Below are positions 2,275 through 7,040 of a stretch of DNA of 64,000 bases, one piece after another. Under the pieces are notes generated by a model. The model had not been told where the DNA came from and did not search any database. It saw only the letters and a program-made list of their open reading frames with translations. This DNA is from Chloroherpeton thalassium ATCC 35110. Its GTDB lineage: Bacteria > Bacteroidota > Chlorobiia > Chlorobiales > Chloroherpetonaceae. The DNA lies in assembly GCF_000020525.1 (NCBI RefSeq), contig NC_011026.1, forward strand, positions 1,656,001 to 1,720,000. Reading direction: 5' to 3'. Each line of letters starts with the position of its first letter. The stretch's first letter is position 1. The position numbers were made by a program, and so were the translations under genes.

Positions 2275-2610
2275 TTATCGTTCAAAAAACGGTTTGTCAT
2301 AAATTTCAAGTCGTTTTTCAGGTGTAAATCTGAAATCGCTAATAATGCCTTCTGGGCGAATCTCAACTAATGCACCTGATGGGCAAGCGTCGGCATCAAA
2401 ACAGAGCTGGCAAGAAATACATGATTTTTGATCAATATAGCACCGAAAACCGCCTTCCTGCACATCACCATAAAACTTAAAGCCGATTGAATTCACCTTA
2501 GGCGGGCACTGGTCTAAACATAACCCACAGCCGACACACAGATTTTCAATTATATCATATTTATTTTTTACCCGTTTTTTGACCTTTGGTGCAGTTTCTG
2601 TTGCTGCCAT
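2275..2610 (-). CDS. pscB: Photosystem P840 reaction centre iron-sulfur protein PscB (FA/FB)
   Basis: A 111-residue protein with two 4Fe-4S motifs, CVGCGLCLDQCPP and CISCQLCFDADACPSG. The second is the spaced variant typical of green sulfur PscB. It carries the terminal FA and FB clusters that pass electrons from the P840 core to ferredoxin. The ATG at 2610 is chosen because AGGAGG (2616-2621) sits five bases upstream. From that start only about 25 basic residues precede the first cluster motif, whereas Chlorobium PscB has a long Ala/Pro/Lys-rich N-terminal extension. The gene lies 350 bases downstream of pscA with a terminator hairpin between them. Confidence 0.95.
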   Translation of the reverse strand: MAATETAPKVKKRVKNKYDIIENLCVGCGLCLDQCPPKVNSIGFKFYGDVQEGGFRCYIDQKSCISCQLCFDADACPSGALVEIRPEGIISDFRFTPEKRLEIYDKPFFER

Positions 2611-2961: not shown

Positions 2962-5217
2962 TTAAGCTACAAATTTTAGCAAGTAATCAACAACGGTAGC
3001 GAGAAAATCGCCAGCTGATTGCGCTGCTTGACCGACAGGTGCTGGGCGAGGCTCGCTTGTCATGTAGAATCCATTAACGATGTAGAGCCATACCAACATA
3101 AATGTTCCGCTGAAATACATCACCGTTCCAGCAAACTTTGAATCAGAAAGGTTCAAGACAGGGAATCTGAACTTAACATCACGATTCAAGAAGGTTTTGC
3201 CAAGCCAGCGAAGCGTGCGGGTTTGGATGTCAGCGCCTTCAAGACGAGAGCCACGATCTTCAAACCAAACAGCAAAGCTGACAAACCATACCAAGTGGCC
3301 GATGAGAAGTACAACTGTCAAGTGAGAGCTGGCCCAAATGGACTGCGTTTCAACCCACATATAGTAGAAAATACCACCGGTATAGTGATGCGAAAGCCCA
3401 GCAATGGCATCCCATGAGTTACAGTCGGCAACCGCCATCGCATAATTCATTGAAGCGACCCAGCCGCCATCAATGTACCATTCAGTTACGGATAACCCTT
3501 TAACGCCCCAAAGCATTGCAAACCAAAGCTGGTCTTGAATTGAGACACCGCAAGTACCACCATAAACAGGGCCAAGGCATGGGAAAGAGAAAGAGTTCTT
3601 TTTCAAGCCAAGATCTTCCCAAAGCGGAGAAGTGTGTGAAAAGAATGCAATACGAACAAGCGCGATCAAGCTGAAAAGAGAACCAGCAACAAGTTCGTGA
3701 ATTGCGCACCAGTCGTTAATGCTCGGGTCGGTGAAGAGCATGCTAAACGGCGGAATCGGCTTCAACCAGTAGAAGGACATGGTAATATTGGTGCCAAATA
3801 AGTTTAGCTCGCAAATCGTATTCCAGCAAACAACTGCATAAACGGAAATCATGGTTGCGAAGCAAAGAACCATCACGGTACCAAGAATTTTTACCTGACG
3901 CTCTTTATCACGGCCATAAGCAACCCAGAAGGATTTGATTTGGCTGTAAAGACCGGACATTTGAATCTTCAACAGGTATTGGCCACCGTGGAACACACCG
4001 GCCATCACATAAAGCGCACCGCAAATGATGTGATTAAAAGCAATCAAGTTGATAACAACTTGAGCCATGCCGTATGAAGAACCGTTTTTAGGAAGAATGG
4101 CATAAGGAGCAAATGCTTCAAATTCCTTCGCCCCTGAAATAATTTTTCCTCCTTCTTGAACAAAGTCAAAGCTGACTCGGTTAAATGGCTCACCATAGAG
4201 ATAATAAACCAAATTGTTCAAGTCTTGATAGAAAAACTGTTCCTGTTGGAATGCAATGTAAGCGAAGATACCTAAAGCGATATTTACATATCCCATTGCT
4301 GTAAGGTGCACTGAGAAAATCGCTTTAAGGTCATCATTCAAATGATAAGCGGCTCCAGGAGGGTTGTTCCACCAGTAATAACCAACAGAGAAGAAGACGA
4401 TGAACCAAATAAACGACATGAACGCTTCTGCGTTAATTGTCTGGAAATCAGGAATTGGAGCAATACCAAGTGCAAGCCACATGACCAATCCCCATGCAAG
4501 GAATAAGAAGGCTTGGTAAATCGTGTGAGCTCCAAGCGCTTCTGAATAGTTCTTTGCGCTGCGATCGGTGAAATACTTAAACATGCGGAAGTCACGGAAG
4601 TTACCGGTTCTTCCAGTGAATGGGTTCGTAAGGTTTTTCGTCCAGTGACGCCAGCCACCGAAAATAAGAAACGAACCACTTAGAAAGTGAATCGCTGCCC
4701 ACCATAAAAGGCTGCCGCCAGCGTGCATCAGGTCTTCGGTTTTGGTACTATAAGTATCAATTCCGAGTGAAACCAAACGCGGCTTAATGGTAAGATAGAA
4801 CCAGTTGTCATGGAAACCGATTTGTCCCCATGGAAACACTTGAATGCCAGAGATGTAATAAATCCCCATCACGATTCCGAGTGTTCCTAAAAGAGCTAAG
4901 TGAGCACCAACAACCTGCTCATCATCAAGCTTGTCCGCGTCAAAAACTTGGAACCATTTTGTTGTTCTGGTTTCAGTTCTTTGAAGCAGAAAACGCTTCA
5001 TATCAGCTACATTTGCCTCTTGAGTTGGAGGGACATCAGCTGCAGGCTTCTTTGCTGTTGCCGCCGCCGGCTTTGCTGCCGGTTTTGCTGCTGTAGCTGA
5101 AACAGCCCCCGTTTTCTTTGCAGCTGCTTGTAACTTAGCTGCTTGAAGTGGCGGCTTTTTCGCAGCACCACCTCCACCACCCGGCGTATTTCCGGTGGGT
5201 TTATCTTGGTCAGCCAT
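2962..5217 (-). CDS. pscA: Photosystem P840 reaction centre large subunit PscA
   Basis: A 751-residue type I reaction-centre core, functioning as a homodimer that binds the P840 special pair, A0 and the FX cluster. Strong markers are FPCLGPVYGGTCGVS, which holds the two FX cysteines (each subunit gives two), the hydrophobic helices from about residue 105 onward, and RGSRLEGADIQTRTLRWLGK near residue 660. Residues 1-72 form a hydrophilic Ala/Lys/Pro-rich extension (MADQDKPTGNTPGGGGGAAK...), longer than in Chlorobium as far as I recall. The start is supported by AAGGAGA eight bases upstream. The gene is single-copy here, as expected for a homodimer. A B12-binding regulator lies 234 bases upstream on the same strand. 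Confidence 0.98.
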   Translation of the reverse strand: MADQDKPTGNTPGGGGGAAKKPPLQAAKLQAAAKKTGAVSATAAKPAAKPAAATAKKPAADVPPTQEANVADMKRFLLQRTETRTTKWFQVFDADKLDDEQVVGAHLALLGTLGIVMGIYYISGIQVFPWGQIGFHDNWFYLTIKPRLVSLGIDTYSTKTEDLMHAGGSLLWWAAIHFLSGSFLIFGGWRHWTKNLTNPFTGRTGNFRDFRMFKYFTDRSAKNYSEALGAHTIYQAFLFLAWGLVMWLALGIAPIPDFQTINAEAFMSFIWFIVFFSVGYYWWNNPPGAAYHLNDDLKAIFSVHLTAMGYVNIALGIFAYIAFQQEQFFYQDLNNLVYYLYGEPFNRVSFDFVQEGGKIISGAKEFEAFAPYAILPKNGSSYGMAQVVINLIAFNHIICGALYVMAGVFHGGQYLLKIQMSGLYSQIKSFWVAYGRDKERQVKILGTVMVLCFATMISVYAVVCWNTICELNLFGTNITMSFYWLKPIPPFSMLFTDPSINDWCAIHELVAGSLFSLIALVRIAFFSHTSPLWEDLGLKKNSFSFPCLGPVYGGTCGVSIQDQLWFAMLWGVKGLSVTEWYIDGGWVASMNYAMAVADCNSWDAIAGLSHHYTGGIFYYMWVETQSIWASSHLTVVLLIGHLVWFVSFAVWFEDRGSRLEGADIQTRTLRWLGKTFLNRDVKFRFPVLNLSDSKFAGTVMYFSGTFMLVWLYIVNGFYMTSEPRPAPVGQAAQSAGDFLATVVDYLLKFVA

Positions 5218-5451
5218 AGGATTCTCCTTTTATCTCCTTATTGACAGGTTAACGAACTGCAAAAATTAATGACTTGACTTTTAGATCATCAATGTGATTA
5301 CTAAATATAAAGATGTTTCCAAAAAACATTCTGAGCAAACGTACAAAATGATTTTAATTTTCCAGCAAATGGAAAATTATTTTCTGAGAATAAAATTTAC
5401 GCTGTTGTCACGGCGCTAAGTCAATGATGCTTATGAATTTACTTTTTCTGG

Positions 5452-6495
5452 CTAAATCGCCAAAACCTCATTTACTTCAAAATTTTCTCTAATGTATTGC
5501 TCAAGTTCTTGAAAATTGTTGGCTTTAAAGTCGGCCAGAATGGGTTGGGTTTTCTTTTCGCCAATAAACTGTCCACCAACCACAAAACTTATATTTTTTC
5601 GCTTCAACGCTTTTCTGAACTGCTCATATTTGCGATACACGCCCACTTCTAAACGCGCAACCGTCACCGACATACAAAGCATATCGGGATTGATAAGATT
5701 TACAACCGATAGAAGATCTTTAAACGGTACCGAAGAGCCTACAAATATAACCTCAAATCCTAAACTTTGGCACACAAGCGACACGCCATGAGATGCGATT
5801 TCGTGGTACTCCGATTCAGGACAAGTGCAAACAACCGCTTTTCTCACACCAAATCGCTTAGCGTGATCTCCTGCTTGCTGTCCATTTTCGGCAACGGCAG
5901 GCGCTCTTGTCTTTAGCCCGGTGCCAGCGTGAGGCACTAGCGATTTTCCCATCCCTGCGTGGCGCGCCCGTTTATCTTGTTTTGCCTCGTATCTCGCTTT
6001 CAAACGGATAATGGCCTCTATCAAAAGGTTGGAAATAATGTGCTCTTCTGCGACGCAGATTTTTTTTGACTCCCACAGTTTTCCAACATTTTCCATGGCC
6101 GGTGAGATTAATTTGTCAAAGATCGCAGCAAATGAAAGATCTTGCTCAAATGCTTTAATTAAAAGAACATCTATTTCTTCTTTGTTATAACTTAGGAGAC
6201 TATTCAACAACCGAATCGAAAGCGCATCGGTATCTCCCTTTACCAAGAGTATTTCCGTTCCCAAATCAAGGTTATCAGATGATTGCTTCTCAATTTTGAG
6301 TCGTTCTATCTGTTCTTCTGGAATGGTGATTTTATTTTTGCTAATAAAATCGAGAACGTCTTCCAGTTTAAATTTTCGGTGGCGACCGATGGTTTTATGG
6401 TGCTTAATCAAGCCCATATTCGACCATCGCTTGACGGTCGTTTCGCCAACACCGCAAAGCTCTGATAACTCACGAGTTGAAAAATAATGCTGCAT
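5452..6495 (-). CDS. MerR-family regulator with cobalamin-binding domain (CarH/LitR-type light sensor)
   Basis: A 347-residue protein. Residues 1-70 are a MerR winged helix (FSTRELSELCGVGETTVKRW). Residues 85-165 are the four-helix B12-cap domain with W-x9-EH (W in KLWESK, EH in AEEH), the arrangement that caps adenosylcobalamin in CarH. Residues 210 onward are the B12-binding Rossmann domain with the ExH ligand in ESEYHEI. In CarH, dark AdoCbl-bound tetramers repress DNA and light breaks them apart. That this protein senses light is inference from conserved residues. About 33 residues (172-205) between cap and Rossmann domain are encoded by a GC-rich palindromic element. Its neighbour pscA makes the photosynthesis genes an obvious candidate target. 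Confidence 0.88.
   Translation of the reverse strand: MQHYFSTRELSELCGVGETTVKRWSNMGLIKHHKTIGRHRKFKLEDVLDFISKNKITIPEEQIERLKIEKQSSDNLDLGTEILLVKGDTDALSIRLLNSLLSYNKEEIDVLLIKAFEQDLSFAAIFDKLISPAMENVGKLWESKKICVAEEHIISNLLIEAIIRLKARYEAKQDKRARHAGMGKSLVPHAGTGLKTRAPAVAENGQQAGDHAKRFGVRKAVVCTCPESEYHEIASHGVSLVCQSLGFEVIFVGSSVPFKDLLSVVNLINPDMLCMSVTVARLEVGVYRKYEQFRKALKRKNISFVVGGQFIGEKKTQPILADFKANNFQELEQYIRENFEVNEVLAI
5885..5975. repeat. GC-rich palindromic (REP-like) insert within the regulator gene
   Basis: The segment contains GTGCC and GGCAC arms (5921-5937) and the 8-bp palindrome GGCGCGCC (5961-5968). It is in frame, encodes low-complexity residues (AGMGKSLVPHAGTGLKTRAP), and has a base composition unlike the flanking AT-rich coding sequence. 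Only one copy was seen in this window, so calling it a dispersed repeat is inference. Confidence 0.5.
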
Positions 6496-6750
6496 TGCTC
6501 ATCACTAAAACACAATAAACAAACCCGTGTTAGCGCTTAACTAACATCACTTAAGTTACAAAATCACATTTTGGGGAGCAAAACGACTATTTCTCAAAAC
6601 AGGCGAATTTTAACAGAATTTGAAATATGCTAAGCCATAAAATTAAAGGCTATGGATTCATTTAACGGCCAAAACGGCCATTCATAAGCAAAGCCTGTCG
6701 TTTTCTGCAAAATCAAAGCATTTTTGAGTCAAGAAATTATCGTCAAGCTA
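6496..6750. other. Intergenic region upstream of the CarH-like gene
   Basis: About 255 AT-rich bases with no credible coding sequence. It holds the GTTAG/CTAAC repeat and a small palindrome (aaaacggcc / ggccaaaac, near 6665-6680). It presumably carries the regulator promoter; no clear -10/-35 was identified. Confidence 0.4.
6529..6545. promoter_or_regulatory. Inverted repeat upstream of the CarH-like gene, possible operator
   Basis: GTTAG and CTAAC arms are separated by 7 bases, about 35 bases before the regulator start codon. The position would suit autoregulation, but no match to a known CarH box was recognised. Confidence 0.3.
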
Positions 6751-6830: not shown

Positions 6831-7016
6831 TTATTCGTCTCCTTGTTGTTGCTTCATTTGCTGAACTTCCACACGAATATCTTGGGCTTTTTGCTTTAAA
6901 TCCGACATGGATTTGCGTACGCGAGTTCCAGCCGATTTATTGCCTTTTTCATAGAATTTGCGAAAATCCTCTTCCATTGCCTCAATCATGGACTTGAGTT
7001 CTGCGAACCTGTTCAT
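6831..7016 (-). CDS. Histone H1-like Hc1 family protein
   Basis: Sixty-one residues, highly charged and helical, with the core RVRKSMSDLKQKAQDIRVEV that matches the Hc1 family common in Bacteroidetes and Chlorobi. Such proteins are thought to bind DNA through the basic helix. This version lacks the long Lys/Ala tail of chlamydial Hc1, and the acidic end (QQQGDE) is also unlike it, so a direct chromatin role is uncertain. It follows transaldolase by 24 bases on the same strand and probably shares its transcript. Confidence 0.8.
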   Translation of the reverse strand: MNRFAELKSMIEAMEEDFRKFYEKGNKSAGTRVRKSMSDLKQKAQDIRVEVQQMKQQQGDE

Positions 7017-7040
7017 CTTCAGGAAAATTTAAAATTAATG

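Follow-up and report, generated by a model that had tools for sequence, protein, structure and literature searches.

The regulator gene and its neighbourhood

The window analysed here is a stretch of 64,000 nucleotides of Chloroherpeton thalassium (G000:C1:1656001-1720000, where G000 is the C. thalassium genome, a single contig of 3,293,456 bp). It carries a gene for a B12-binding transcription regulator directly upstream of pscA, which codes for the core protein of the type-1 reaction centre (P840). The features of this locus are listed below in the numbering of the window, with the support for each in brackets.

5452-6495, minus strand: regulator gene, ATG start, 347 aa, a B12-binding HTH_17/BldC-like transcription regulator (Pfam/NCBIfam, alignment, fold match)
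6334-6486, minus strand: DNA-binding domain of the regulator, HTH_17, residues 4-54, with the near-invariant ETTVKRW..MG.I.HHKT.G.HRKFK (Pfam and alignment)
6073-6075, minus strand: W141 of the regulator, corresponding to CarH W131 and followed by E, where Thermus CarH has H132 (alignment)
6040-6045, minus strand: E151-H152 of the regulator, counterpart of CarH E141-H142 (alignment)
5803-5805, minus strand: H231 of the regulator, predicted lower axial cobalt ligand, compare CarH H177 and CtMerR H204 (alignment; CtMerR ligand according to PMC11796333)
2962-5217, minus strand: pscA, 751 aa (PsaA_PsaB, 4.1e-7, above the cut-off)
2275-2610, minus strand: pscB-like 2[4Fe-4S] reaction-centre protein (domain match; 83-86% identical to the copies adjoining pscA in relatives)

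The open reading frame (ORF) coordinates bear out the spacing of 234 bp on the same strand between the regulator gene and pscA that was given in the preliminary description. A scan of the minus strand between the two genes found no terminator, so that a single transcript covering both is possible.

Sensor pocket and family placement of the regulator

Behind its N-terminal helix-turn-helix (HTH) the regulator has a B12-binding_2 domain (residues 95-165, Pfam) and a B12-binding domain (residues 221-310). The Pfam score of the latter is below the gathering score, yet NCBIfam corrinoid proteins match it at 1e-12. The AlphaFold model has a mean pLDDT of 78.5 and a low-confidence linker at 182-214. 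The C. thalassium protein carries an insert of 34 residues between the helix bundle and the B12 domain (5885-5975, RARHAGMGKSLVPHAGTGLKTRAP...); it is found in one copy only in the genome, which rules it out as a mobile repeat.

The residues expected to bind and cap adenosylcobalamin (AdoCbl), reported earlier as the conserved W-x9-EH and ExH, are present as W141-x9-E151H152 and E229-x-H231. Both are invariant, together with G138, G253 and P257, in the alignment of 12 regulator sequences, with orthologs 51-61% identical. Where CarH has H132, the 12 sequences have E, A, C or S, and not one has His. Compared with the signature of light-responsive cobalamin-binding domains (GxxW, EH, GxxH, GxxxP; PMC11796333), the regulator has GKLW, EH and GSSVP, and SEYH in place of GxxH. 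It is probable that the protein binds AdoCbl and responds to light.

The preliminary description had named the protein a CarH-type B12 light sensor. This stands for the AdoCbl-type sensor domain but not for membership of the CarH family, whose model NF052513 gives 43.4 bits against a curated cut-off of 400; the HTH is HTH_17/BldC-like, H132 is lacking and the putative repeats are of 9 and not 11 bp. PF12728 (HTH_17) scores 41.9 bits (gathering score 27), whereas MerR (PF00376) reaches 22.4 bits against 28.2 and the BldC family (NF033787) 28.7 bits against 77, the likeness to BldC being confined to the HTH and the repeat length. The scores for corrinoid methyltransferase proteins are also below the cut-offs (48 against 350 bits for MtbC and 45.9 against 215.3 bits for TIGR02370), and the regulator has an HTH. 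It is thus not a CarH at the family level, though probably of the CarH/CtMerR type.

The closest solved structure is 8jbs/8jbt (sequence 4e-26, profile 3.8e-33, also found by fold); the fold matches TtCarH as well. The entry is the B12 domain of CtMerR, a MerR-family protein of Chloracidobacterium thermophilum that binds AdoCbl, responds to green light and passes from a tetramer in the dark to a monomer in the light, all without H132 (PMC11796333). CtMerR and the regulator share the domain order, a similar N-terminal HTH, GxxW, EH, the axial His, GxxxP and a residue other than His at the H132 position, and C. thermophilum is also a phototroph with a type-1 reaction centre. The two differ in that identity in the structural alignment is ~20% and that the regulator has Ser where the GxxH of CtMerR has Gly. 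CarH/LitR of Thermus, Bacillus and Myxococcus has in common with it the pocket residues W131, E141, H142 and H177, the three-domain layout and a direct-repeat operator, but the regulator lacks H132 and carries HTH_17 instead of MerR. CarH operators are tandem 11-bp repeats covering the promoter (PMC9304148), whereas the putative sites of the regulator are 9-bp repeats ~43-114 bp upstream of a promoter-like box; the targets of CarH/LitR are carotenoid genes, those proposed here reaction-centre genes. BldC of Streptomyces binds 9-bp head-to-tail direct repeats, AATTXXXX(C) per protomer (PMC5859096), a form that GATTTGGTC nearly fits; BldC has a related HTH but no sensor domain. AerR/PpaA of purple bacteria likewise binds B12 and controls photosystem genes of an anoxygenic phototroph; it differs in being an antirepressor that acts via CrtJ (PMC5362033), whereas the regulator carries its own HTH and its reaction centre is of type 1, not type 2.

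Distribution in the Chlorobiales and linkage to pscA

Sixty-one genomes of the order Chlorobiales, from four families, were compared. The regulator is present in all 12 genomes of three families (Chloroherpetonaceae, Thermochlorobacter aerophilum and related metagenome-assembled genomes are among the carriers) and missing from every one of the 49 genomes of the fourth, presumably the Chlorobiaceae (Chlorobium, Chlorobaculum). A pscA match was found in 60 of the 61 genomes, 48 of the 49 of the fourth family included. Each of the 12 carriers has the regulator gene directly upstream of pscA and in the same direction, while the genes upstream of the regulator vary between genomes, unlike the pscA side. 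This synteny, proposed as a check, makes the link to pscA stronger than first claimed. The setting had been described as an anaerobic phototroph, which holds for part of the range only: the majority of carriers come from the Thermochlorobacter lineage, which has been characterised as photoheterotrophic and either aerobic or microaerophilic (PMC4400912).

Weak matches to B12 proteins also occur in the fourth family; three of the five, those examined at L014, L015 and L017, are corrinoid proteins without HTH and without W-x9-EH and were rejected as regulators. A metagenome-assembled Chloroherpetonaceae genome (G002) encodes a second W-x9-EH B12 protein at L021 (G002:C21:17386-17910), a frame of ~224 aa without HTH that matches the CarH sensor region at 2.7e-16 and whose layout resembles AerR/PpaA.

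A tandem 9-bp repeat upstream of the regulator

When the 400 bp preceding each of the 12 regulator genes were searched by motif (Gibbs) sampling, two conserved elements emerged, a promoter-like box (TTTTGTAAsTTA) and a tandem 9-bp repeat (RGYCGWTTN, twice), the repeat being present in 12 of 12 upstream regions. In the window they are represented as follows.

6662-6679, minus strand: putative operator GGCCGTTTTGGCCGTTAA, composed of the two 9-bp direct repeats GGCCGTTTT and GGCCGTTAA (Gibbs motif, repeat search, position weight matrix)
6580-6588, minus strand: further single half-site AGTCGTTTT, between operator and promoter box (repeat search)
6551-6558, minus strand: conserved promoter -7-like box TAACTTAA (TTTTGTAAsTTA); the operator lies 104 bp before it (motif sampling)

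In 11 of the 12 genomes the box follows the end of the putative operator by 92-93 or 103-105 bp, in the twelfth by 50 bp. In the window it is the top site of the 64 kb for the position weight matrix (PWM) at 16.7 bits, a value not significant by itself (the maximum in shuffled sequence has a median of 12.1 and goes up to 25.8); its weight comes from its conservation and its placement, not from its score. Binding had been anticipated at 5218-5451 or 6496-6600, but no copy of the pair lies in either segment. An operator inside the gap between regulator and pscA (5218-5451) was rejected, as the paired repeat is absent from this gap in 12/12 genomes.

In the Thermochlorobacter lineage (L026, L027, L028, L031, L034) the gap has, in the 200-360 nt before pscA, an invariant AAATGAAC and a repeated GTTCTTTG with inverted repeats on either side, the arms of which seemingly covary. 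It is possibly an RNA leader; Rfam at gathering thresholds gave no match for the regulator-pscA gaps. A short lysine-rich ORF on the minus strand of the window (6835-7018, MNRFAELKSMIEAMEEDFRKFYEKG...) resembles by eye small histone-H1-like proteins.

Candidate regulon

Pattern searches that allowed at most one mismatch gave the candidate regulon, and the target list is thus incomplete. In 10 carrier genomes RGYCGWTTTRGYCGWTT has 55 matches against 27 for the reversed-pattern control; the respective numbers in 12 non-carriers are 11 and 40 (carriers versus non-carriers, Fisher p 3.7e-7). Within the Thermochlorobacter lineage the matches recur upstream of the same orthologous genes, and the orientation of the operator is constant within each target family. 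The targets are given below with the distance from operator to promoter-like box.

PFOR: operator in 7 genomes; 43 bp (7/7)
ArsA-II ATPase: operator in 7 genomes, the third-family genome among them; 113-114 bp (6/6)
ArsA-I ATPase: operator in 4 genomes; no conserved box found, excluded from the phasing test
PucC: operator in 2 genomes; 53 bp (2/2)
BchP: operator in 2 genomes; 43 bp (2/2)
Operon of small protein, lipoprotein and TonB receptor: operator in one Thermochlorobacter-lineage genome and in C. thalassium; 93 bp in both
pscB where relocated from pscA (L176): operator present; 53 bp
Two unknown proteins: operator present; one at 93-94 bp, as for the TonB operon

Sites held out of the PWM were recovered by it (PFOR of G017, 27.8 bits; ArsA-II of G009, 22.0 bits), as was the ArsA-II site of G003, which lies outside the training set (24.1 bits); 11 orthologs of PFOR and ArsA-II in non-carriers score at most 12.4. 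Control of pscA and of this candidate regulon by the regulator is very probable.

Some of these loci contain little-characterized genes. The TonB-type operon (L134:8347-11701 and L139, G000:C1:1516182) codes for a short protein and a lipoprotein, followed in L134 by a TonB-dependent receptor. A protein starting with MEY(H/Q)FPAVDPIPLPAPVW is encoded at L151:1906-3075 (minus) and L153:3067-4242 (plus), and in both genomes the operator precedes a promoter-like box by ~93 bp; the L151 copy has no match in Pfam/NCBIfam, and the gene is a candidate for a photosynthesis-related function. An unknown membrane protein has the operator near its start in three genomes (L152:3119-3775, plus; L162:2634-3290, plus; L166:1973-2755, minus).

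Position of the repeats relative to promoter-like boxes

The distances between operator and TAnnTTTG-like box differ by near-multiples of ~10.2 bp (phase coherence 0.85, p 0.004, period scanned over 10-11), the p value being only a guide because the putative promoter boxes were picked by eye with the help of ortholog conservation. Phased upstream placement is typical of class-I activators. Since the Chlorobiales repeats sit upstream of the promoter-like boxes on one helix face, the bound protein would most likely activate RNA polymerase, and we consider it reasonably likely that the regulator is an activator.

In the non-phototrophic Ignavibacteria, distant homologs retain W-x9-EH and the axial His, and their recognition helix (ETTVKRW) is nearly the same; some of them adjoin a photolyase gene, or crtI, crtB and a photolyase gene. 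Of 16 Ignavibacteria loci, 13 have CGWTTTNNNCGWTT, with at most one mismatch, no more than 110 bp from the start of the regulator gene (expected 0.11), so that the HTH family and the 9-bp repeat go together in a second lineage. In the three loci inspected the repeat directly follows a TTGAC/TATATT-like promoter. This placement is the one expected of a repressor and opposite in geometry to the one found in the Chlorobiales.

Proposed mechanism and alternatives

Taking everything together, we lean towards a regulator of the CarH/CtMerR type that binds DNA, senses light through AdoCbl and activates a type-1 reaction-centre regulon in the dark or in dim light. The AdoCbl-bound protein would form in the dark an oligomer on the tandem 9-bp direct repeats (RGYCGWTTT), head to tail as BldC does, and from its position upstream of the promoter would help RNA polymerase. 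It would act on its own gene together with pscA (and pscB); for the Thermochlorobacter lineage, PFOR, the ArsA ATPases, PucC, BchP and unlinked pscB would join the targets. Cleavage of the Co-C bond by light would release the oligomer from DNA, and reaction-centre synthesis would drop. In hot-spring mats the reaction-centre genes of anoxygenic phototrophs, Thermochlorobacter among the taxa, are expressed more strongly at night (PMC11788075), and at Porcelana the phototrophy transcripts of Thermochlorobacteriaceae are found especially at night (PMC6176055). These data agree in direction with a dark-on switch, a polarity to which we give a slight preference.

Several observations weigh against this interpretation. 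The mat is also anoxic at night, so the nocturnal peak need not reflect light. Ser replaces Gly in the GxxH light-sensing signature of the regulator. The motif was not found at the C. thalassium PFOR and ArsA promoters, only the regulator-pscA and TonB operon sites being recognisable in this genome, and operator sites at orthologous genes count only partly as independent evidence. Ranked by a simple consensus score, the chosen promoter-like box does not come first in every case, and upstream sites could also repress by looping.

The last point leads to an alternative with the same sensor and operator, in which the AdoCbl form, as a dark repressor like CarH, keeps the promoter silent through looping or wrapping, pscA being induced by light. 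Dark repression is the mode of CarH in Thermus, Bacillus and Myxococcus (PMC9304148); the repeat adjoins the start codons of the Ignavibacteria homologs, and arrays or extra half-sites lie closer to the promoter in some genomes, the window included. The recurrent Chlorobiales sites nevertheless precede the chosen promoter box at phased distances, and the nightly rise of reaction-centre transcripts in mats (PMC11788075) speaks against it; we regard it as unlikely, yet as a serious competitor. The regulator might instead sense cobalamin supply or redox state, matching reaction-centre synthesis to the B12-dependent synthesis of bacteriochlorophyll. The linkage of a B12 domain to genes of bacteriochlorophyll proteins, the absence of H132 and the altered GxxH would be in line with this, as would a PpaA/AerR-like protein of Rhodospirillum rubrum that is reported to be tied to redox state (PMC10734443). 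This reading, too, is a serious competitor but unlikely; against it stand the invariance of W-x9-EH and ExH, the green-light response of the nearest relative CtMerR in spite of its lack of H132 (PMC11796333) and the photolyase or carotenoid genes beside some Ignavibacteria homologs. That the repeat belongs to another regulator of equal distribution, the B12 protein being a mere neighbour, is very improbable: co-occurrence by itself cannot name the binding protein, but the repeat precedes 13 of the 16 Ignavibacteria homologs sharing the helix ETTVKRW, and BldC-like HTH domains bind 9-bp direct repeats (PMC5859096).

For the origin of the dark-on activator we tentatively suggest, with rather less assurance than for its action, that an ancestral light-relieved repressor of photolyase/carotenoid genes became a dark-active activator when its operator was shifted away from the start site, to upstream positions in helical phase. 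The protein would then have become the master switch of the Chlorobiales type-1 reaction-centre regulon and have been lost in dim-light specialists of the Chlorobium/Chlorobaculum type.

Significance

Photoreceptors that use B12 (CarH, CtMerR, photocobilins) are already known, as is B12 control of photosystem genes in purple bacteria (AerR/PpaA). Among the papers searched, none describes a regulator of pscA, the reaction-centre gene, in green bacteria, and none reports a B12 sensor that is linked to a type-1 reaction centre and has activator geometry and a putative operator of 9-bp repeats. Now that the gene, a DNA site and a set of targets can be named, light control of the type-1 reaction centre becomes directly testable, and the two ArsA ATPases and the unknown membrane proteins are candidate parts of the photosynthetic apparatus. 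If the proposal is true, no B12 photoreceptor known to us would have been linked to a type-1 photosystem before this regulator; it would provide a clear example of a repressor site moved to an activator position, and a new way of light control for an ancient photosystem type.

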